From positions 1 through 64,000 of the forward strand of contig JAHBVX010000014.1 in assembly GCA_019637295.1 (NCBI GenBank): 64,000 nt of DNA, in the 5' to 3' direction. The stretch's first letter is position 1, and each line of letters begins with the position of its first letter. This stretch comes from Polyangiaceae bacterium (GTDB taxonomy: Bacteria > Myxococcota_A > Polyangia > Polyangiales > Polyangiaceae). The position numbers and the translations under genes are program-made. Positions 1 to 14,602 of this stretch are shown in pieces. The notes beneath the pieces were generated by a model, which saw nothing but the letters and a program-made list of their open reading frames with translations, searched no databases and was not told the origin of the DNA.

Positions 1-609
1 AACCCGCTGGCGCTCGATCACGCCCTTGGCTTCGAGCTTCACGCTGCCCACGGTGAGCTCGCCCTGCTCGATGTCGACCCGCGTGCCGTCCAATGCCAGC
101 TCTCCGCGCCCCCGCAGCCCGAGCTCGAGGTCGTGAACGCGCTGCTTGGCGAGCCACGGCTGTTCGAGCGCCAGCTTGGAGAGCTTACCGGTGCCGTGGC
201 CTTTGACCCGTCGGCCGTCGGCCGTGAGCCGCAGCGCCACGTCGGCCTGCACGGTGCTGCTGGCCACGTCCGACAGCCCGAGGTCGCCCTCCCGCACGCC
301 GAGCAACCCCAGGCTCACGGGCCCACCAGAGACGGAGAGCTCCACCTCTCCACTTCCGAGTGGCAACTCGAGGCTCACGCGCAGCGGCTGCGGCGCGGCC
401 AGCGCTTCGTCGTCCCCAGAGCGCCCGTAGCGCACGCCCCACGCGCGTTCCGGCTCGCCCCCCGCCAGCGCTCCGCTCCACTCGACGTTCAGTCCCGCGA
501 CCTCGATCGCCGCTGTCGATGAAGACGCGGAACCGCCGACCCGCGGCCGCCGCGCGGCATAGGCCAGAAGCTGTCGGCGCACGTCCTCGAGAGAGCCGCG
601 CCGCCGCCG
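1..609 (-). CDS. Partial AsmA-like protein, possibly the non-catalytic part of a peptidoglycan transglycosylase
   Basis: An open minus-strand frame runs off the window at base 1. It reads as real protein from about base 600 downward (RGSLEDVRRQLLAYAARR..., then alternating beta-strand segments such as GSGEVELSVSGGPVSLGLL and LDGTRVDIEQGELTVGSVKL). This strand-rich pattern resembles AsmA-type or DUF3971-like repeats, which in some myxobacterial proteins precede a GT51 transglycosylase domain; that assignment is a guess. There is no start codon with a leader: the frame is closed by a TGA at 664-666, directly inside the YD-repeat gene. The N-terminal part is therefore missing, and the fragment is fused head-on to an unrelated gene. 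It may be an assembly join or a deletion. Confidence 0.4.
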
Positions 610-3600
610 CGCCGCCGCCGCCGGCGCCGTTCGAGTCGGCGCACGTGCTAGTGGACGCGCACTTCACCAGGCCGTCCTTGTCGTACGCGTACGAGATCGT
701 CCCTGCAGCGCCCGCGGGGACGTAAGTCTCGCTGGTGACCTGCAGCAGGTCGTTGAACGTGCGGTCCACCGAGCCGCTGATGGCGCCGCTCCAGGTGGTC
801 TTCTTGTGCAGACTGCCCAGGTACTCGAAGGCCAAGTTCACGCCGGCGGGGCCGGTGATGGTCGCCAGCTGGCCGGCGCCGTGACCCGGGGCGGCGTGGT
901 AGGTGTAGGAGAGATTGCCGAGCGGGTGCGTCACGTCCGTGAGCCTGCCGCTCTGCTGATCGTAGCTGTGCGCGAGGTACAGGCCGTCGGGGCGCAGCTC
1001 GATGTCGAGGCTCTTGTTGGGCTTGTACGTGTAGAGCGTCAGCGGGCTGCCTTGTTGGAGATCCGGGGGCACGTAGCCGGAGAGCAGATCTTGCGTCGTG
1101 TAGTTCATCGCGTGGGTGGGCTTGCCGGGCGGCGTCAGGCTCTTCAGGTTGCTGCTCGCGTCCCACGCGAACTGAGTGGTCGCGGTCTGCGCCCCGGTGC
1201 CGAAGGTCTCGCTCAGGACGCGACCGAGCGCGTCCGGCACCAGCGTGCGGCTCTGGGACAGCGCGTCGGTCGTGGTGTGGAGGTAGCCGTTCTTGAGGTC
1301 GCTGCTGCCGGTGGCGTAGTACGCCAGGGACTGCTCGCGGGTGCCTTGCGTGATGGTGGTCAGCCGGCCGTGGGAGTCGTAGTTCATCTCCACGTCCAGG
1401 ATACCAGGTCGGGACACGGTGCGCACGCGGCCGCCAGCGTCGAGCAGCTCGGCGATGGTGCGGCCCTCGCTGCTGGTCGTGGTGCGCGTGGACGTGGACG
1501 CGGTGAACTGAACGGAGCTTGCCGGCGTGATGCCGTTGACCGTCGTGGTCTCGGTCCAGTCGCCGCCGCTGGAGGTGCGCGTGCGCGTGACGGTGCGCGT
1601 GTGCGTGGTGCCGATCGTCGTGACCTCCGTCTTGTAGTACGGGCTCTGCATACCCAGTACTGGATCCGGCGCGGGGGTGGCGTCCACCGACATGGTGTTG
1701 GGGTGCGCCACCGTCAGGGTGCCGTCCGCCTTCTTCTGGTCGATGCGCACGGTGCCGTCGGGCTCGGTGACGGTGCGCTTCAGACCACCGGCGGGGATGC
1801 GCTCCACCTCGTACTTGGAGACCAGGCCGGAGGCGTCTTCGTGGTGAACCTCGTAGCCCTCGGTGGCAGCGGGCTGCGGGAGCGGACGCGACAGGTACTG
1901 GGTCGCGCCGGAGGGAGCGCGATCTTCGATCAGTCGCCCCGCTCCGTCGAACTTGAAGATGTGATTGTACCCGCGCGCGTCCACCAGCTTGGTGAGCAGG
2001 CCGCTCGCCAGGTGGGTGAGCTCGATGTGATCGGGTGCCGACTGACCCGCAGACGTCACGGGGTAGGTGAGGGAGGACAGATAACCGTTCGAGTCCGTGT
2101 CGATCAGGGTCTCGTGTCCGAAGGGGCCCAGGATCTTGATCGGCGCGCCCGCGGTGTCGCGTACGATCTCCGTCACCAGATCCTGCGGGCTGGTGACGCC
2201 CGGGTGCTTGCGGCGAACCTCGGTGATGCGTTCGTGCGAGTCGCGCGTGATGGTGAGCACGGTGGCCCCGGTTCGCACGTTGCGTGTCTCGAGGTGGCGC
2301 CCGGCGGCGTCGAAGACGGCCTCGTGGTCGGCGTCGAGCGCCACGGAGATGTCCCCGGTGACCGGGCGCTCCGGGAGAGCAGCGCGAACCCGGAACACGA
2401 CGCCCCCCGTGTTCACGGCGTAGAGTGAGCCGTCGGGGGCGACGGTCACATGATACGCGGTGTTGAGGTTGACCCCGAGAGCTGGGGCGCCGGTCGCGAG
2501 CGCGCCGCTGCCTCCCCCCGCTACAGCACGAACGATGCCGGCGCTGTCGACGTGCCGGATGATCGTGTTCCCGTCGCCACTGCCGAAGTAGAACGAGCCA
2601 TCCGGGGCGGCGGTCACACCCTTCGGAGCGCCCGGCTGGAACTCGATCGCGCGGACACCGTGCACCGAGCCACCTCCACCGGTGAGCGTGCCGACCACGT
2701 TCCAGATGGTTCCGTCGGAGCGGAGCTCGTACACCATGCCGAACGTCCGGCCGAAGAGCACGCTGCCCTGGGGGGTCACGGCGATGCCGGAGTATTGTCC
2801 GGGCAGCACGCACGTTTCGGTGCCGAGGACGCCGGGCGTCAGCGTGAAGGGGCTCTGACTACAGCCTCCATTACCCGCAACGTTGCGCATGTCGGTGCGC
2901 GCGGCGTCGATGCGCTTGACGACCTTGTTGTCTTGGCTCCTGTCCACTACGTACAGCGTGCCGTCCGGTGCGAATGCGAGCCCCCCTGCACTCAGCGCGG
3001 CGGACAGCGGAGGACCTTCACCGTTTCCAGGCGTGCCAGTGCCCGCGACGTGACGCAGTCGGTAGTGGGTCGGATCCATGGGATCCGTTCCGACGAAGGT
3101 GCGCCGAAGCACGCGGTAATTCGATGAGTCGCTGAAGTAGAGTTCCCCTTCCGGACTCTCGGCGATGCCCTCAGGCAACAATTCACAACTCGTCGGGTCC
3201 ACGTTGTCGCCGCACGGGTTCGTTCCTCCGCCAGCGATCAGCGTCGTGTTGCCGCCCGGAAGGATGCGGTACACGCCGCCGTAGCCACCAACGTACACTA
3301 CCCCCTGCGCGTCGACGGTGAGAGTATTGTAGGGCATACCGGTCTTTATTACTTCGACGACGTTGCCCACCGTCTCCACGGTCCTTCGCTGCCCCGTGCC
3401 CAGGTGCAGCTCGCGGCCCTGCGGATCGTACCAGTGCACGTCGCTGAGAGACCAGCCGCCGAGGTCGTGGACTCGAGCGTCCATGCCGCCCAGAGTGACT
3501 GGAAAGGAGCGAGTGATGCGGATCACCTGTCGGTCCGTCGAAGCTGCAGCCATGCCCGACAGACTGGAGGCGAAGGCGGCAAAGTCCTCCGCGTCGTAGT

Positions 3601-6600
3601 AGACGGCGGGATAGACCTCGGACACGAGCAGCTGGCCCCGCTCCTCGCCGAGCGTGTACCGGCCGTACGCATCCTTCCCGTCCCACACGACCTGCTGGGT
3701 CGAGCCGTAGGCGTACTTGGAGTACTTCGACCAGTTGGTGATTCGCCCGCCGATGTTGAGCTGCGCCTCGAACCACATTCGCGCGTCCTTGGGCGTACTG
3801 GGCAGTCGGAAGGTCACGGTGCGCCGGCTGGCGTCTCCGGGAGTCCGGCTGCTGCGGTAGTGCAGCGACTGATCCGTGCCCGCCAGCGGTAGCGTCTCAC
3901 CGAGGGTCTGCGACTCGCACTCGATGATCGAGCCGGACTTGGTCGAGCTGCAGTCCGGGTCCGGGTCCGGTCCGGTGGCCGTGCCTTCGTCGTCGTTGTA
4001 GCAAGGGCCGCCGTCGTCGCAGCGCGGGGGGCCGTAGGGCCAGTTCAGGTCCCATGGCGTGAAGTGCGTCATGCGCGCGCGCCAGAGCTCGTCGCCAACC
4101 GAGTACGTGTCTCCCAGCGCGTCGAGCTCTTCGTCGGTGAAGCCCAGCTCCGAAGGCAGAGTGTCCGGATCGAGATCGCCGCCGGGCAGTCCGCTGTCGA
4201 GGTCGATCTCGGCGCGCCCGTTGGTGATGTCCGCGATGCGGATCACCCGGCCGCTCTCGGCGGCCTTCCAGTAGCCCGCTTCCTTGTCGTAGTAGCCGAG
4301 CGGCACGTTCGCGCCGACGCGGAAGCCGAGGAAGTTGTCGACGTAGAACGGGATGGCCACCGGCGTGGGCTCCGTCTCGCCGTCGTGGAACTCGACGCTT
4401 TCCGCGCCGTCGACGCCCAGCTCGACGGCGTAGGTGTAGCCGCTGGCTGCGGGCAGGTCGCCGGGCATGGAGTTGGTCGCGGCGCCCTCGCTCCACTGGG
4501 TGTACTCGCTGATCCGGATGCGGATTTGGCTCGGCTGGGAGCTGCCCGAGCCGGTCTCCACGGTCGCGGCTACGCCGTCCGGGATGAACAGCCGGCCACG
4601 GCGCTCGCGGTCGTCCGCGGAGGGCCCCTCGCTTACCAGCGGCCCGGTCACCATCTGCCCGGGTCCACTCGACGACGGGTTGAGGGTCACGTCAGCAAAG
4701 GTCGAGGTTGGCTTCACCAGGATCACGTCGTCGAGCGGGACGTACTCGTTCCAGGGCAGGACCTTGGTCGTGCGCTGGGACGCGAGGTAGCCCTCGCGCT
4801 CGAAGGTCACGGTGAGCGGAGCGCCGCCCTCTACCGCCAGGTCGAACCAGCCGTCGTCGCGGGTGAGCGTCTGTCCCCACGAGTCCTTCTTGCCGAGGAT
4901 GCTCACGACCACGCCTGGCAGGGGGAGCTCCGCGCCCGACTTGCTGATGCAGGTTGCTGGCGCAGTGCAGTCGCGACCGAGCACGCGACCGCGCAGCACC
5001 GTCACGCGCTTCGGATCGAGCGGGTCGATGGACGCGCCCGCGGGCTTGGCCTGAATGGGGTCTTGCCCGGCGTAGAGGAACGCGGTCGCGTCCGTAATCC
5101 AAGTGGCTGCCGTCGGATCGATGGGCGAGGGCACCGGCTCGGGCGCCGACTCCGCCGGCTCGTCGCAGCGGCCCGCGCCGTCGCACTCCATGCCTCCACT
5201 GTTGCAGCCGGCGGGGGTAGCCCCACGTGGGAGCGGCGTGTTCAGCACGCCGAGAAAAGCGTCACAGCTGTCAGCCGTGCAGGGGTTGCCGTCGTCGACG
5301 TCCGGAGCGGTGCCGCTCTGGCACGTGCCCGAGCCGTTGCACAGCTCCACGCCGTTGCAGGGATTGCCGTCGCTGCACACGGTGCCGGACGCCACCGGCG
5401 TCGCGCTGCACGTTCCAGAGCCATCGCACTCGTTGATGGTGCAGGGGTTGCCATCGTCGCAGGGCGAGCCCGAGGGCTTGGGGTCCGTGTACTCCGGACC
5501 CCCTCTCCCATCGCGGCACTCGAAGCACTCGTAGCCGGCCGGAGGCGCCGGATCGGGCAGGGCCACGCACTGGCCGCTCTGACACTCGGACCCGCCCGAG
5601 CACGAGCCACCCCAGACGCACGTGGTGCCGTCCGTCGCCGGCTCGGCGCTCATTCCGAGCACGGGATCGCAGGAGTAGACGAGGCAAGGGTCCCCGCCGC
5701 CGAATCCCGAACCGGCGCACCAGCCTCCCCGGCACGTCGCCGGGCCGTCGCAGGGGTTGCCTGTCGTGCACACCTCATCGTCCGGCAGCGGGACGTTCTG
5801 CACGCCATTGACGGGATCGCAAGAGTCGATGGTGCAAGAGTTGCCGTCGTCGGGGTTCACGCTGGCATGCCACACGCTGTGGGTCTGCTCATCGCAGAAG
5901 TCGAGCGTGCACGGGTTGCCGTCGTCCGTCGGGTTCGTCGCGGCGACGCACTGGTGGCTGGAGTTGCACTCCTCTGCGCCGTTGCACCACAGCCCGTCTT
6001 CGCAGCTCGTTCCCACCGTGTCGAAGATACTGCAGGGCTGTCGTAACGCCGCGTAGGCCTCCCCCTCCGTGTACGAGCCTGCCGTCGCCGTCACGAGCGC
6101 GAGCAGATCCGCCTTGCCGTCTCCGTTCACGTCGGCGGCGTGGCACTCGTCGCTGCCCGCGCAGAAGTCGTCGTGCGCCAGCGAGGCGGTCGAGAACGCG
6201 CTCCCGGTGGACAGCGAGACGGTCACCGAGCGCGGGGTCTGCCCCGACTCCGGGAACACCACCAGATCCGCCTTGCCGTCACCATCGACGTCACCGAGCC
6301 GCGTACGCTCACCGCTCCCGGCCAGGTTCGAGTGCCAGGTGCTGGCGGTGCCGAAGGAGCTTCCCGTGGACAGGGCGACTCTCACCACGTTCGAGCCGTC
6401 GATGCTGACGATGTCCGCCTTGCCGTCGCCATCCACGTCAGCCACGAGCGGAACGTGGCCGGCGGGAGCGAAGCTCGAGTGCCACACGTACGGGCCGTCG
6501 AAGCCGTCCCCGTTGGTCAGCCCGGAGCCCGTGGACAGGTACACCAGCACGGTGCCCGGCGAGTCCTGATCGAACGCCACGAGATCGGCGAGTCCATCGC

Positions 6601-7048
6601 CATTCGCGTCGGCCAGAAACATCGGCCCGGGCGGCTCCTCCTCCGACCAGACATCCGCGGCGTTCACGTCGAAGGACCAGCCCGTCGACGGAAACACGGC
6701 GATGCCGGTCTGCTCGAAGTAGACCACCATGTCGGCCTTGCCGTCGCCGTCCACGTCTCCGAACCCCGTCCACTCGCCGAGGAAGAAGTTCAGCCAGGCC
6801 ACGGGCCGATCGACCCCTTGCGTGGTCCCGAGCGCGACGTTGAAGTCCGCGTCGAACCAGCCTTTGTATTCGTGGGCGATGGTGTCGGCCAGGCCATCTC
6901 CGTTCACGTCTGCCACCCAACATGGGGTTCCCTGACAGGCCGTCACCGACGTGTACCAGATCGTCTCGGGGCCGAACCCCTCCGCCGTGGCGCGCCGGGC
7001 GAGCGCGAGGCTCGCGACCAGGACCAGCGCCGCAATCGTCCATTTCAT
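185..7048 (-). CDS. Giant secreted FG-GAP / Cys-rich / NHL / YD-repeat (RHS, teneurin-like) protein, 3' end disrupted
   Basis: The start is put at the Met of MKWTIAALVLVASLALARR, which gives a clean Sec signal peptide; an upstream ATG at 7108 adds 20 non-signal residues. In order: six FG-GAP/VCBS calcium-binding repeats (DVNGDGLAD, DVDGDGKAD and similar, about residues 45-315); a Cys-rich stretch with repeated DGNPCT-type motifs (about 340-640); a carboxypeptidase-regulatory-like fold; an NHL-type propeller (about 1270-1590); then YD repeats (YDSHGRLTTI, YTYHAAPGH). RHS/teneurin-like proteins form large surface or secreted shells and often carry a C-terminal toxin or adhesive tip. Here the frame loses all resemblance to RHS after STCADSNGAGGGG (near base 620). 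The last 140 or so residues down to the stop at 185 are an out-of-frame reading of a different gene, so no RHS core signature or tip domain is present. Confidence 0.8.
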   Translation of the reverse strand: MKWTIAALVLVASLALARRATAEGFGPETIWYTSVTACQGTPCWVADVNGDGLADTIAHEYKGWFDADFNVALGTTQGVDRPVAWLNFFLGEWTGFGDVDGDGKADMVVYFEQTGIAVFPSTGWSFDVNAADVWSEEEPPGPMFLADANGDGLADLVAFDQDSPGTVLVYLSTGSGLTNGDGFDGPYVWHSSFAPAGHVPLVADVDGDGKADIVSIDGSNVVRVALSTGSSFGTASTWHSNLAGSGERTRLGDVDGDGKADLVVFPESGQTPRSVTVSLSTGSAFSTASLAHDDFCAGSDECHAADVNGDGKADLLALVTATAGSYTEGEAYAALRQPCSIFDTVGTSCEDGLWCNGAEECNSSHQCVAATNPTDDGNPCTLDFCDEQTHSVWHASVNPDDGNSCTIDSCDPVNGVQNVPLPDDEVCTTGNPCDGPATCRGGWCAGSGFGGGDPCLVYSCDPVLGMSAEPATDGTTCVWGGSCSGGSECQSGQCVALPDPAPPAGYECFECRDGRGGPEYTDPKPSGSPCDDGNPCTINECDGSGTCSATPVASGTVCSDGNPCNGVELCNGSGTCQSGTAPDVDDGNPCTADSCDAFLGVLNTPLPRGATPAGCNSGGMECDGAGRCDEPAESAPEPVPSPIDPTAATWITDATAFLYAGQDPIQAKPAGASIDPLDPKRVTVLRGRVLGRDCTAPATCISKSGAELPLPGVVVSILGKKDSWGQTLTRDDGWFDLAVEGGAPLTVTFEREGYLASQRTTKVLPWNEYVPLDDVILVKPTSTFADVTLNPSSSGPGQMVTGPLVSEGPSADDRERRGRLFIPDGVAATVETGSGSSQPSQIRIRISEYTQWSEGAATNSMPGDLPAASGYTYAVELGVDGAESVEFHDGETEPTPVAIPFYVDNFLGFRVGANVPLGYYDKEAGYWKAAESGRVIRIADITNGRAEIDLDSGLPGGDLDPDTLPSELGFTDEELDALGDTYSVGDELWRARMTHFTPWDLNWPYGPPRCDDGGPCYNDDEGTATGPDPDPDCSSTKSGSIIECESQTLGETLPLAGTDQSLHYRSSRTPGDASRRTVTFRLPSTPKDARMWFEAQLNIGGRITNWSKYSKYAYGSTQQVVWDGKDAYGRYTLGEERGQLLVSEVYPAVYYDAEDFAAFASSLSGMAAASTDRQVIRITRSFPVTLGGMDARVHDLGGWSLSDVHWYDPQGRELHLGTGQRRTVETVGNVVEVIKTGMPYNTLTVDAQGVVYVGGYGGVYRILPGGNTTLIAGGGTNPCGDNVDPTSCELLPEGIAESPEGELYFSDSSNYRVLRRTFVGTDPMDPTHYRLRHVAGTGTPGNGEGPPLSAALSAGGLAFAPDGTLYVVDRSQDNKVVKRIDAARTDMRNVAGNGGCSQSPFTLTPGVLGTETCVLPGQYSGIAVTPQGSVLFGRTFGMVYELRSDGTIWNVVGTLTGGGGSVHGVRAIEFQPGAPKGVTAAPDGSFYFGSGDGNTIIRHVDSAGIVRAVAGGGSGALATGAPALGVNLNTAYHVTVAPDGSLYAVNTGGVVFRVRAALPERPVTGDISVALDADHEAVFDAAGRHLETRNVRTGATVLTITRDSHERITEVRRKHPGVTSPQDLVTEIVRDTAGAPIKILGPFGHETLIDTDSNGYLSSLTYPVTSAGQSAPDHIELTHLASGLLTKLVDARGYNHIFKFDGAGRLIEDRAPSGATQYLSRPLPQPAATEGYEVHHEDASGLVSKYEVERIPAGGLKRTVTEPDGTVRIDQKKADGTLTVAHPNTMSVDATPAPDPVLGMQSPYYKTEVTTIGTTHTRTVTRTRTSSGGDWTETTTVNGITPASSVQFTASTSTRTTTSSEGRTIAELLDAGGRVRTVSRPGILDVEMNYDSHGRLTTITQGTREQSLAYYATGSSDLKNGYLHTTTDALSQSRTLVPDALGRVLSETFGTGAQTATTQFAWDASSNLKSLTPPGKPTHAMNYTTQDLLSGYVPPDLQQGSPLTLYTYKPNKSLDIELRPDGLYLAHSYDQQSGRLTDVTHPLGNLSYTYHAAPGHGAGQLATITGPAGVNLAFEYLGSLHKKTTWSGAISGSVDRTFNDLLQVTSETYVPAGAAGTISYAYDKDGLVKCASTSTCADSNGAGGGGAAAARLSRGRAPTASGLCRAAAAGRRFRVFIDSGDRGRGTERRVERSAGGGRAGTRVGRALRALWGRRSAGRAAAAAREPRVATRKWRGGALRLWWAREPGVARRAGGRPRAVGRGQQHRAGRRGAAAHGRRPTGQRPRHR

Positions 7049-7205
7049 GATGGCGGGCTTTCGCCCCACCACCGACCCGGGCCAACGCCCCGCCACCGTG
7101 CTCGACATCGTGCAGCGAGCCTACGGCATGGTCGCGGCGGCCCGCGCACGGCGCGCTGGACTGATTGTTGGGGACTCGTGCGGAGTTAGGGTCACGCGAC
7201 GGCGG

Positions 7206-9643: not shown

Positions 9644-10039
9644 TCAAGCAAGCACGAAGCCCGCGAGGCGTGCCGCCTTCCGGTCGAACGTCAGCGTATG
9701 CCGGCACCCGGCCTTCTCGCCGAGCGCTGCGATCAGGGCGTCGGCGAAGGAGCCTGCGCCCTCCGCTAGCGCGGTCATTGCGGCGAATACTTGCTGTTCG
9801 TCCTCGACGACCAACGCTTCGACTTGCAGCATTCGCTCGATGGCCGATGCAATCTCTGCGGCAGCGAGGCCGTAGGCCCGCTCCAATACCCATGCCGTCT
9901 CCGCCATCACGACGACGCTGACGAAACCGGGATTGTCGACGCTCAGCTCGCTCTCGATGATGCGCGTCGCGGTCTGCGACTGCCGGGCATCGTCCTGGAC
10001 CAGGTAGCGAACGAGAATGTTCGTATCGAGGCCAATCAT
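9644..10039 (-). CDS. vapC: VapC-family PIN-domain toxin (ribonuclease)
   Basis: 131 residues with PIN-domain landmarks: MIGLDTNILVRYL carries the first catalytic Asp (D5); a Glu in MAETAWVLERAYGL (near 46) and the segment SFADALIAALGEKAG provide the distal acidic residues; HTLTFDRKAARL closes the fold. VapC toxins are Mg2+-dependent ribonucleases that block translation by cutting tRNA or rRNA. The start codon overlaps the last 4 bases of the antitoxin gene, so the two are translationally coupled and antitoxin is made first. The length is normal for the family and all catalytic positions look present, so the toxin should be active. Confidence 0.9.
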   Translation of the reverse strand: MIGLDTNILVRYLVQDDARQSQTATRIIESELSVDNPGFVSVVVMAETAWVLERAYGLAAAEIASAIERMLQVEALVVEDEQQVFAAMTALAEGAGSFADALIAALGEKAGCRHTLTFDRKAARLAGFVLA

Positions 10040-10302
10040 TGTCTGGGGCGGCGCCGCGCCTTGTCGAGTGCGCCGCCGGCCACGGCTTCATTCATTTCCT
10101 CGAGCGTCACGGCGCGGCCTTTGCGACCGAGCATCCCGCGCATCGCCGAAGCCGGAAGCTTGGGCAACAGGACGACCGTTCCGTTCGGGTGTTTGAAGAA
10201 CTTCACCCGGTCGCCGGGCTTCAGCTTGAGATACTCGCGGATCTCTTTGGGGATTGTCGCCTGTCCCTTGGCTGTGATCGCGGACTCCAACTCGGCCTCC
10301 AT
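10036..10302 (-). CDS. vapB: AbrB/SpoVT-type antitoxin of the VapBC pair
   Basis: 88 residues. The N-terminal half is a swapped-hairpin AbrB domain (SAITAKGQATIPKEIREYL...LKPGDRVKFF), which dimerises and binds DNA. The C-terminal tail (MRGMLGRKGRAVTLEEMNEAVAGGA) is the amphipathic helix that normally plugs the toxin active site. It is the first gene of the pair, and its ATG lies inside a perfect inverted repeat that also covers the -10 box, so autorepression by the VapBC complex is likely. Confidence 0.9.
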   Translation of the reverse strand: MEAELESAITAKGQATIPKEIREYLKLKPGDRVKFFKHPNGTVVLLPKLPASAMRGMLGRKGRAVTLEEMNEAVAGGALDKARRRPRQ

Positions 10303-11849: not shown

Positions 11850-12206
11850 TCACCAGCAGCACATGACGGTGGTCTGGGGATGGGTAAGTGGGCTCTTGAG
11901 CGGGGGTCCCTTCAAGGTGGGGAGCTGCTGGATCTTGACCGTGGGCGCGGGCGCGCTCGAGCCGCCGGTTCCACCCACGACGCCGTCGAGCTGGCTGTCG
12001 GACAGCTGTGGGTTGATGGTCTGCTCCGTGGCGTCCATCACTTGGATCAGCTCCTCACGGGTGAAGGAGAAGCCCGCGCTCTCGCCCTCGGCGAGGGCCA
12101 GACGAATGTACGCCTCCCGCCCTTCGGCGTCGTCTAGACGCGCCTTCAGCTCGGCGTTGGTGAGGACATGGCCCTCGAAGAACTTCACGAAGCTTTCCAT
12201 GGACAT
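11850..12206 (-). CDS. Nif11-type RiPP precursor peptide
   Basis: 118 residues. The start is fixed by an AGGAG eight bases upstream of ATG 12206. Residues 1-79 match a Nif11-class leader: N-terminal helix MSMESFVKFFEG, the (D)AEGREAYIRLA helix, GFSFTREELIQVM, then the terminal LSDSQLDGVVGG double-glycine motif where C39-type peptidases cut. The predicted 39-residue core starts near T80 and is rich in Pro, Ser/Thr and Lys; it contains KIQQLPTLKGPPLK and ends TTVMCCW. Leaders of this family direct RiPP enzymes to the core. Upstream on the same strand lie a glycosyltransferase and a radical SAM/SPASM enzyme, the likely modifying enzymes. No transporter or peptidase gene is adjacent. Confidence 0.85.
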   Translation of the reverse strand: MSMESFVKFFEGHVLTNAELKARLDDAEGREAYIRLALAEGESAGFSFTREELIQVMDATEQTINPQLSDSQLDGVVGGTGGSSAPAPTVKIQQLPTLKGPPLKSPLTHPQTTVMCCW

Positions 12207-12214
12207 CGATCGAA

Positions 12215-12219
12215 CTCCT
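12215..12219 (-). promoter_or_regulatory. Shine-Dalgarno site that fixes the precursor start
   Basis: AGGAG on the minus strand, 8 bases before ATG 12206. A longer open frame reaches back into the glycosyltransferase gene, but this site marks the short 118-residue form. It lies in the 124-bp gap after the glycosyltransferase stop, so the peptide may be translated independently and at a higher level. Confidence 0.7.
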
Positions 12220-12330: not shown

Positions 12331-13473
12331 TCACCATCCTCGCCCCGCGCGAGCGGCGTCGCGGTACACCTCCAGGTGCGCCGTCGCGGACCGGTGCCAC
12401 GAGAACTCGCGGCTGCGCTCGAGGCCGGCGTGGGACAGCTCACGCCACAGGGTCGCGTCGTGAGCGATGCGCTCGAGCGCACGCGACAGCGCCTCGGCGC
12501 GCAGTGGGACGTGCAGCGCCGCCCCGCCCATCACCTCGCGGAGCGGCGCGATGTCACTGGCGACGACGGGGGTGCCGCAGGCGGCCGCCTCGAGCACCGG
12601 CAGGCCGAAGCCCTCGAAGCGGGAGAACTGCACCAGGGCCGTGGCTCCCTGCAGCAGCTCGAGCAGCTCCGAGTCGGTGACGGCAGGTAGGGAGAGGAGC
12701 CGATGGCGGATCCCGAGGCGTCGCGCCTCGGCTTCGAGCCCGCGGCCCCAACGGCTCTTGTACAGCCGTTGCAGCAGCACGAGCCGGTAGTTCTTGGGCA
12801 ACCGCGCCCGCGCGAAGGCGTGCAGAACCGCTGCGTGGTTCTTGCTCGGCGTGTTCTGGCCCACGACGAGGAAGTAGGGGTCCACAATCCCGAGTCGCTC
12901 GTCGAGCCGCCGCTCCACCGCCGCGCGCTCTGCGGGCGGGCGAAAGCGCGCATCCACACCGTGGGGGATGACTCGGAGTCGAGGCGCGGCCCGTGGCGCG
13001 CGAGCGAGGATAGCGTCGGCGCTGGCGCTACTGATGGTCACGATGCGGGTCGCTCGCGTGAGAGCGCGCAGGATCCCATCTCGGTAGAACAACACCTTGG
13101 CCGGAAGCAGCGGCGAGACGGCCTCGCACAGCGTGGGTCGGTCGAGCCACATCAAGTCATGGATGGTCACGACCGTCGGCACCTGGAGCCCGCGACCGAG
13201 CAGGTTGAACGGCGCGTGAAGCACATCGATGTCCTTCAAGTCGCCGAGGCGGCTCGGACGGAGCAGCGTGCCCAGACCGTTGGCGGGGGCGCGCACGACG
13301 GTCTCGGTCACCGTCGGCTCGGACGAGAGAGGTCGCGGCGCGCGCGGGTGGACCCATAGCTCGAAGGTCGAGTCCGGCGCGAGCCGGGGCAAGCGCTCGA
13401 TGAGTGCGCCCACGTAAGCGCCGATGCCGCTCGGGCGCTCACGAACGTAGCGACTGTCGAGGCACACGCGCAT
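12331..13473 (-). CDS. GT4-family glycosyltransferase of the RiPP-like locus
   Basis: 380 residues with a GT-B fold. The N-terminal domain begins MRVCLDSRYVRERPSGIGAY, whose Gly-rich loop is typical of retaining GT4 enzymes. The C-terminal domain has FLVVGQNTPSKNH (start of the nucleotide-binding domain), IPHGVDARF, and the E-x7-E signature EGFGLPVLEAAACGTPVV. No membrane segments. It transfers a sugar from a nucleotide-sugar to an unknown acceptor. Its ATG is 3 bases after the radical SAM stop (TGAGTCATG), so the two are co-translated, and the precursor gene follows 124 bp later. That context suggests peptide glycosylation, but GT4 enzymes also act on lipids and polysaccharides, so the acceptor is open. 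Confidence 0.85.
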   Translation of the reverse strand: MRVCLDSRYVRERPSGIGAYVGALIERLPRLAPDSTFELWVHPRAPRPLSSEPTVTETVVRAPANGLGTLLRPSRLGDLKDIDVLHAPFNLLGRGLQVPTVVTIHDLMWLDRPTLCEAVSPLLPAKVLFYRDGILRALTRATRIVTISSASADAILARAPRAAPRLRVIPHGVDARFRPPAERAAVERRLDERLGIVDPYFLVVGQNTPSKNHAAVLHAFARARLPKNYRLVLLQRLYKSRWGRGLEAEARRLGIRHRLLSLPAVTDSELLELLQGATALVQFSRFEGFGLPVLEAAACGTPVVASDIAPLREVMGGAALHVPLRAEALSRALERIAHDATLWRELSHAGLERSREFSWHRSATAHLEVYRDAARAGRGW

Positions 13474-13476
13474 GAC

Positions 13477-14490
13477 TCACACCACCGGCAAGTGCCGTCG
13501 CTCGCCGCGGCTGGGCTCGGCCTTGCCCTCCGCGGGCTCGAGCATCTGGTCGAAGCGCCCACCCCAGGCCAGGTTCTCCTCGACGACGCGCGCGCACCAG
13601 CACTCGGAGCAGCCGCCCCGAACGAGGCGATCGAACGCCGTGCCCGCGCCGACCTCGACCACATTCGGAGCGTCGTGGGCGCGACTGACCTGGCCGCAGT
13701 GATGTAAATCCCCCTCGGGGCCCAGGGTGACGTTGATGATGCCGGCGGCGCAAGGTACCCGCGTGGGCTCGGGGTAGCGACGGAAGTGTCGCAGGCTGCT
13801 CCAGCGATTGTGGACCGGGCTGCCGCCGCGCTTGCGCGCTTCCACGCGCCGGAACGCGCGCCGCACCTGAGCAGCGGCCGGCACGAAGCTCGACCCGTCC
13901 CGAGGGCTGTCCAAGAACAGGCTGGGCCGCACCGGCTGAAATACGATCGGCAGGCCCCGGGCCTCGACGAAGTCGAGCAGCTCGTCGACGAGCTCGTAGT
14001 TGTGAAGGCCAATCACGCAGGTGAGCTCGACCGGCGCTCCGGCCTCGCGGGCCGCGTCGATGCCGGCCATCGCCTTGTCGAAGGCGCCGGCGCCGCGCAT
14101 GCGATCGTGCGCTGTGCGAGGTCCATCCAGGCTGATCTTCACGCGCGACACCAGCCGAATGGTCGCCAGGCGCTTGGGCACCAGGATGCCGTTGGTGTTC
14201 ATGTGTACGGTGACACCGTGCTGCACGAGGAAGGCGGCGATCTCGTGGACGTGAGGGTGGGTCAGGGGCTCGCCGCCGTCGAGCGAGACGACGCGGGTGC
14301 CGAGCTCGACGAACTGGGCGAGCGCGCCGAGGATCTGCTCGCGGCTCATCTCCGTGGAAGAAGGCGTGTGGCGATCGCAGTACGTGCACGCGAGGTTGCA
14401 CAGATGCGTGAGCTCGAACCCGAGCGAGTGGGGGACCGGCGCGATGCCCGCACGAGCGCCCAGGATGCGCGCCAAAGCCAAGGGTTGCAT
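13477..14490 (-). CDS. Radical SAM/SPASM-domain enzyme, candidate RiPP maturase
   Basis: The radical SAM cluster motif CNLACTYC (CxxxCxxC) lies near residue 30 after SLGFELTHL; DGGEPLTHP is the GGE motif that binds the SAM amino group; KISLDGPRTAHD follows. The C-terminal third is a SPASM-like region with CAAGIINVTLGPEGDLHHCGQ and later CSECWCARVVEEN, enough Cys for an auxiliary 4Fe-4S cluster. Such enzymes install thioether, C-C or epimerised residues in RiPPs (sactipeptide, PqqE and mycofactocin types). I use ATG 14490; a GTG at 14577 gives 29 more residues without a ribosome site. It is the first gene of the three-gene unit with the glycosyltransferase and Nif11 precursor. Confidence 0.85.
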   Translation of the reverse strand: MQPLALARILGARAGIAPVPHSLGFELTHLCNLACTYCDRHTPSSTEMSREQILGALAQFVELGTRVVSLDGGEPLTHPHVHEIAAFLVQHGVTVHMNTNGILVPKRLATIRLVSRVKISLDGPRTAHDRMRGAGAFDKAMAGIDAAREAGAPVELTCVIGLHNYELVDELLDFVEARGLPIVFQPVRPSLFLDSPRDGSSFVPAAAQVRRAFRRVEARKRGGSPVHNRWSSLRHFRRYPEPTRVPCAAGIINVTLGPEGDLHHCGQVSRAHDAPNVVEVGAGTAFDRLVRGGCSECWCARVVEENLAWGGRFDQMLEPAEGKAEPSRGERRHLPVV

Positions 14491-14602
14491 CCGCGATCGC
14501 CAGTGCAACCCGCATGCCGCACCGATGCGGCGCAGATCCGTCGCACCGTGCGCGTGGCGCACAGGGCGAGGGTTCACAGGTGTCGCCGACGGGAGGCTAT
14601 GC

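Follow-up and report, generated by a model that had tools for sequence, protein, structure and literature searches.

The window, the whole 64,000-nt stretch of Polyangiaceae bacterium DNA analysed here, carries the gene for a Nif11-leader RiPP precursor. Sequence comparison shows that its C-terminal tail, T-[VI]-M-C-C-W, has been retained as protein sequence in two phyla. We propose, with a probability of roughly 0.64, that this gene is a second, unlinked precursor copy that is matured in trans by enzymes encoded on contig C20 of the same genome, which would act on this tail. The window copy is not linked to the C20 cluster, which weighs against this proposal and makes processing in trans our inference. 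To judge from its gene content, the likely product of the C20 system is a halogenated peptide natural product not described before, and an orphan precursor is now tied to a testable set of enzymes.

Precursor and conserved tail

Read on the minus strand, window:11850-12206 translates into MSMESF...SQLDGVVGG followed by the core TGGSSAPAPTVKIQQLPTLKGPPLKSPLTHPQTTVMCCW and a stop codon at 11850-11852 (Table 1). The first-pass annotation had described a 39-residue core behind a double Gly, ending in MCCW, with the Cys pair as its only Cys and the Trp as its only aromatic residue. The translation agrees with this description: the core comprises residues 80-118 and ends in TTVMCCW, VVGG occupies residues 76-79, the entire precursor has no Cys other than Cys116 and Cys117, Trp118 is its sole Trp, and no other Phe, Tyr or Trp was found in the core. 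The core had been placed at 11850-11966, which is one codon off, since that span covers 38 residues plus the stop; residues 80-118 correspond to 11853-11969. The leader is assigned to Nif11 by PF07862 (E 2e-5, 25.2 bits, above the cut-off of 23.8), and it scores slightly below the cut-off of TIGR03798 (E 3.3e-7, 30.5 bits compared with 32.3). In the AlphaFold2 model, helices span residues 2-14, 18-26, 30-44 and 50-64, and residues 65-118 have a pLDDT below 50.

Table 1. Features of the window, genes of the C20 cluster and C-terminal tails of the wider family.
Feature	Location	Strand	Basis
Nif11-leader RiPP precursor gene, 118 aa, orphan copy	window 11850..12206	-	translation, family matches
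Ribosome-binding site AGGAG	window 12215..12219	-	8 nt 5′ of ATG, read from sequence
Leader, residues 1-79	window 11970..12206	-	predicted four-helix Nif11 part (residues 2-64), then disorder up to VVGG
Leader-core boundary Gly78-Gly79	window 11970..11975	-	translation
Residues 89-101 (TVKIQQLPTLKGP), probable recognition element	window 11904..11942	-	eight-precursor alignment, V90 invariant in 8/8
Conserved C-terminal tail T113-V-M-C-C-W118, proposed modification site	window 11853..11870	-	sequence comparisons
GT4-family glycosyltransferase, judged outside the system	window 12331..13473	-	PF00534/PF13439
Radical SAM protein, judged outside the system	window 13477..14577	-	PF04055
754-aa protein, MBL-fold part and LanB elimination domain (PF14028, SpaB_C)	C20		TIGR03891 over cut-off
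580-aa MBL protein, second of the cluster, end resembling TIGR04500	C20		
686-aa LanB N-domain protein	C20		PF04738; profile closest to MibB/NisB/TbtB
Cyclic-nucleotide-binding protein	C20		
NHLM HlyD, C39-peptidase ABC1 and ABC2 exporter genes	C20		over cut-off (C39 exporter: TIGR03796)
Nucleotide cyclase	C20		
852-aa tryptophan halogenase P0005, RRE/E1-like N-terminal part	C20		PF04820, E 8e-106
Cupin_8 protein	C20		
Tail STVMCPW	G045		
Tails KTIMCPSW and KTVMCPSW, two to four copies per locus	G164, G167, G169		
Tail STVMCPQWY	G170		
Tail TRMCSGWT	G158		
Tail STIMCAF	G255		
Tail STVMCAF	G256		

Searching the own genome, which is 98.5% complete at 7.65 Mb in 25 contigs, recovered one paralogue, located on contig C20, 54% identical to the window precursor and ending in STIMCCW. 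Identity amounts to 48/79 in the leader, 11/33 in the core middle and 5/6 over the last six residues, which is the outcome foreseen for an alignment of homologues, in which the CCW tail would be conserved and the middle would vary. The element V-K-[IV]-Q-x-L-P-x-L-K and the MCCW end are identical in both copies. These two are the only such tail ends of the genome; four other matches to a T-x-M-C end pattern turned out not to be precursor ends. Being unlinked to the enzymes and adjoining unrelated genes, the window copy might be a non-functional duplicate of the C20 precursor. Its reading frame is intact, however, the ribosome-binding site is good, and leader and tail motifs have persisted at 54% identity alongside many synonymous changes. 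The codon differs synonymously at 24 of the 60 identical non-Met/Trp residues, which points to selection on the protein and speaks against a decaying duplicate, an explanation that we regard as unlikely.

Outside the own genome, a class-wide profile search (317 genomes) yielded one more precursor, G281, ending in GTIMCCW, and a first scan of the genome collection with leader patterns gave no relative. When 84,980 species genomes were scanned for sequence that encodes T-[IV]-M-C-C-W-stop, 74 stretches were retrieved, six of which are the ends of Nif11/Gly-Gly precursors (four Nostoc, one Trichormus and one Sorangium MAG, the latter carrying the G281 sequence); the other stretches end short or unrelated frames and look like chance, with an expectation of about 45 by a rough hand estimate. 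In total, the MCCW end was found in eight further precursors, namely the own-genome paralogue, that of the Sorangium MAG and six from cyanobacteria. V90, T113, M115, C116, C117 and W118 are invariant in an alignment of eight precursors, besides some leader positions; as five of its eight rows were recovered via the tail itself, unbiased support for the tail comes from the paralogue, G281 and G642. Myxobacterial and cyanobacterial relatives keep T-[VI]-M-C-C-W while the remainder of the core diverges, and the tail codons vary between clades (TGT/TGC, ATT/ATC/GTC), so that conservation acts at the protein level. The earlier view of the tail as the likely modified site is supported as regards site and conservation, T113 and M115-W118 being invariant in the eight, and not as regards the vicinal Cys pair, which is not essential in the wider family: position 117 is occupied there by C, P, A or S.

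In cyanobacterial precursors, the element V-[NK]-I-R-S-I-x-S-V-N-G-I-K-A-R-P (also written V-x-I-R-S-I-x-S-V-N-G-I-K-A-R-P) precedes Gly-Gly, and the core behind Gly-Gly is only about 14-15 residues long. This element aligns with residues 89-101 of the window precursor (TVKIQQLPTLKGP), a stretch that in this precursor and its myxobacterial relatives follows Gly-Gly. Owing to the counterpart before Gly-Gly in cyanobacteria, the Pro/Lys/Thr-rich middle of the window core much of which aligns with this element, is likelier to be recognition or spacer sequence than product, with residues 89-101 as the probable recognition element.

Genes beside the two precursor copies

The neighbours of the window copy offer a different source of modification, in which the radical SAM protein would form a thioether or Cys-Trp cross-link and the GT4-family protein would glycosylate the peptide. 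Both genes lie directly upstream of the precursor on the same strand, the C-terminal region of the radical SAM protein is Cys-rich, and the Cys pair adjoins a Trp. Yet homologues of the two occur close together in three relatives (G014, G036 and G023, loci L193, L194 and L195; identity 53-60% for the radical SAM protein and 45-61% for GT4) in which the precursor search gave no match, and neither is found among the neighbours of the C20 paralogue, despite its having the same tail. For these reasons they were judged not to be partners, and the pair was rejected as cognate enzymes. In addition, the radical SAM protein reached no cut-off of the RiPP-maturase models and was not classed as a sactipeptide or ranthipeptide maturase. 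The S-glycosyltransferases of glycocins are of the GT2 type, which the GT4 protein does not resemble; no GT2-type S-glycosyltransferase was found at the precursor locus, and the gene was not classed as a glycocin precursor. Modification by these neighbours is very improbable. The S-glycosyl linkage considered in the first-pass annotation thereby loses its candidate enzyme, as the GT4 protein travels with the radical SAM protein in precursor-free relatives; a thioether or Cys-Trp bond in the tail is possible.

Elsewhere in the window, a putative PIN-domain (VapC-like) gene, recognized by reading, lies beside a putative AbrB-like antitoxin gene (9644-10302, minus strand). A very long ORF with FG-GAP/RHS-like repeats (185-7108, minus strand) becomes low-complexity Arg/Ala towards its C-terminus; a frameshift near its 3′ end is suggested.

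The genes of the C20 cluster were read and family-scanned, and lie beside the paralogue on the same strand. NHLM exporter genes are present in this cluster, and the window copy has none next to it. The MBL part of the 754-aa fusion matches the CmlA profile with E 1.5e-18 and is therefore called CmlA-like. Its HxHxDH, Glu and Asp ligand positions are invariant in nine homologues and align with CmlA and 8a90; an invariant histidine for the last CmlA ligand position was not found among the nine, so that diiron binding, as predicted from these ligands, is likely rather than certain. For the halogenase P0005, the closest solved chain is MibH (5uao, E 7e-126), and the protein carries the motifs GVGEAT, K-x-G-I-x-F, WCWNIP and EPLEST. 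By model match, its N-terminal third resembles LynD, MccB, TruD and McbB, all of them RiPP proteins in which a precursor-binding RRE is combined with an E1-like fold. The LanB of class I lanthipeptides is present in split form, as a PF04738 protein and a PF14028 domain, and no LanC was seen among the C20 genes scanned or in the cyanobacterial clusters read.

YcaO gave no PF02624 match in the own genome, and 6/9 genomes searched do match. A single partial TfuA-domain match in the own genome (G000:C12:353136-353402, L218) is unlinked and was dropped as a cluster member, no other cluster gene lying beside it; no adjacent YcaO-TfuA pair was found in this genome, and the system was not classed as a thioamidated RiPP. 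The C-terminus of P0003 is a domain of about 100 aa that resembles part of TIGR04500 and recurs in L112, L114, L115, L118 and L155. Across loci, this domain is attached to an MBL protein, a CmlA-like protein or TfuA, or stands alone, and is possibly a shared precursor-handling domain.

Related loci and proposed maturation

The cyanobacterial loci encode the precursor together with SpaB_C, Cupin_8, a C39 exporter, YcaO, TfuA, the RRE-halogenase, LanB_N and a standalone CmlA-like protein; contig breaks split parts of this set at two loci. The MBL/TIGR04500-like protein is 46-49% identical to its C20 counterpart, and YcaO and TfuA are adjacent and closest to McrA thioamidation models. In G281, a single contig carries the start of a CmlA-SpaB_C fusion, the precursor, the halogenase, LanB_N, TfuA and YcaO. 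In six genomes, one contig holds both a tryptophan halogenase and an MCCW precursor, the window copy being unlinked. The RRE-halogenase is encoded in all six tail-hit genomes and in the enzyme-found G642, and gave no match in the stretches read around non-CCW tails, a distribution that fits the Trp of the CCW context as its target. Most cyanobacterial loci contain a second halogenase-family flavoprotein beside the RRE-halogenase, for example at L148:12704-14203 (minus strand), which lacks the WxWxIP motif; in the Nostoc loci this second enzyme may hydroxylate rather than halogenate.

In other myxobacteria, CmlA-like homologues lie beside precursors with different leaders and related tails (Table 1). 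A search of Nostocales by CmlA-like profile, made without reference to the tail, matched 3/388 genomes, of which G642 was new and has a full cluster with a precursor ending in KSTIMCCW. An ORF ending in T-x-M-C-x(1-2)-[W/F] (plus 0-1 residue) was present at 10/10 loci found through the CmlA-like enzyme, although G642 is the only strictly blind case, because the pattern was first noticed on some of the ten. The same pattern occurred in none of fourteen control loci (about 237 kb) and 0.0 times per locus in shuffled sequence. The LanB N-domain and elimination domain are present in most loci, and a separate SpaB_C was found wherever LanB_N was seen and both locus ends were readable. No LanB was seen in the G255 and G256 stretches, whose tails end in MCAF; LanB is hence not universal, and of the modifying enzymes the CmlA-like one alone was seen with every tail. 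At G165, a CmlA-like gene is accompanied by a tail-like MCPSR frame and no LanB, and this locus looks degenerate and was set aside; no precursor was found in G171, where the contig ends just upstream.

The tail motif is a simple handle for genome mining, as it retrieves clusters of several different leader types. An even-handed assessment would give equal weight for and against an undescribed RiPP superfamily of myxobacteria, cyanobacteria and perhaps Streptomyces, in which a CmlA-like oxygenase acts on a T-x-M-C-x(1-2)-[W/F] tail whatever the leader, with the RRE/E1-like-fused halogenase (CCW branch) and YcaO-TfuA (in some) as clade-specific additions. Arrays of two to four short-leader precursors (...LTLVDLDDLRAAFGGE...KTIMCPSW) lie upstream of the CmlA-like, LanB_N and SpaB_C genes at L115, L116 and L117 (G164, G167 and G169) and may represent a branch of this RiPP family that does without Nif11.

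For the window precursor we envisage five steps, listed here in our ranking from most to least likely. The RRE/E1-like-fused, MibH-type flavin halogenase would bind the precursor and halogenate Trp118. This is the clearest prediction that we draw from the cluster, and one that the first-pass annotation had not named; a halogenase-family flavoprotein might just as well hydroxylate a C-terminal Trp or oxidize it in another way. The CmlA-like diiron oxygenase would hydroxylate or oxidize Trp118, Met115 or Cys116. The split LanB, made up of the N-domain protein and the CmlA-fused elimination domain, would dehydrate Thr113, and the T-x-x-C spacing from Thr113 to Cys116 would suit a four-residue methyllanthionine ring. 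In YcaO-TfuA relatives, the backbone may also be thioamidated or cyclized at cysteines, a route not open to the own genome. Finally, the C39 NHLM exporter would cut after Gly79 and secrete the product.

The third of these steps could itself be the principal modification: after dehydration of Thr113 (and Thr112 or Ser) by the split LanB, addition of Cys116 would close a four-residue T-x-M-C methyllanthionine ring, Trp halogenation being secondary; this overlaps with the favoured explanation. About 22 tails contain T-x-M-C, with a search pattern that favoured it, and most loci have both LanB parts. Consistent with a lanthionine ring, Streptomyces sp. ADI95-16 carries on plasmid pADI95-16a (L213, 11998-22305) a CmlA-like gene beside LanC, LanB, SpaB_C and a GrrM-type cyclophane radical SAM gene, together with a 93-aa ORF containing YTTMCTTF, although this ORF is a candidate precursor only. 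The missing LanC in the C20 and cyanobacterial clusters read and the LanB-free MCAF loci of G255 and G256 weigh against a lanthipeptide in this sense, which we hold to be possible and somewhat unlikely.

LanB N-domain proteins that lack a fused elimination domain can also be peptide aminoacyl-tRNA ligases. The 686-aa protein lacks such a domain, as PEARLs do, and the amino acid on which CmlA itself works is bound to an NRPS carrier. The precursor might thus be a pearlin-like carrier peptide, with LanB_N extending Trp118 and the tail later being released as a small molecule. However, a separate SpaB_C accompanies LanB_N wherever both locus ends are readable, as in split dehydratases, the LanB_N profile is closest to the dehydratases MibB, NisB and TbtB, and the C39 exporter and Gly-Gly cleavage fit a secreted peptide. 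Such a carrier role is quite improbable, and we retain maturation of the window copy in trans by the C20 enzymes.

Comparison with known systems

The nearest described system is srp. The core of SrpE ends in LCCCW; the YcaO protein SrpC forms thiazolines from its cysteines, and bromination of the C-terminal Trp is the work of SrpI (PMC10858898). LCCCW and the MCCW of the window precursor share consecutive Cys followed by a C-terminal Trp; SrpI is a leader-dependent flavin halogenase acting on this Trp, and relatives of the window precursor likewise carry YcaO. The SrpE leader, in contrast, is nitrile-hydratase-like and that of the window precursor Nif11, SrpI has no RRE whereas P0005 is fused to RRE and E1-like domains, and the C20 cluster adds the CmlA-like, split LanB and second MBL proteins in a genome without YcaO.

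In the consulted part of PMC11791876, MppE is a Nif11 precursor with the Trp brominase MppI and a LanM. Like the window system, it combines a Trp halogenase with a Nif11-like leader that contains Gly-Gly; its core, ACWRWSG, differs in that the Trp is internal and the LanM is of class II, and that part of the paper describes no CmlA-like or split LanB protein. The portion consulted of a survey of TfuA-linked clusters reports Nostocales clusters, some with Nif11-like precursors (PMC8120280), and the Nostoc loci found here may be among them; that portion makes no mention of the CCW tail, the halogenase, the CmlA-like enzyme or myxobacterial relatives.

The NAI-107 enzymes provide the closest solved homologues of the halogenase and the LanB N-domain, the chlorinase MibH (PDB 5uao) and the dehydratase MibB (5ehk), with the difference that MibH acts on a leaderless peptide and is not RRE-fused, and that MibB is a full-length LanB. 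Within the scope of one library, a literature search found no description of an RRE-fused halogenase in the parts of the sources consulted, and no relevant combination of CmlA with RiPPs. A halogenase with its own precursor-binding domain would be useful for peptide tagging. CmlA, the diiron β-hydroxylase of chloramphenicol biosynthesis (PDB 4jo0), shares with the C20 homologue the metallo-β-lactamase fold and the HxHxDH, Glu and Asp positions. The substrate of CmlA is held on an NRPS carrier, whereas the C20 homologue belongs to a RiPP cluster and is fused to SpaB_C; should such a diiron oxygenase modify a ribosomally made peptide, it would carry NRPS-carrier chemistry over to RiPPs.
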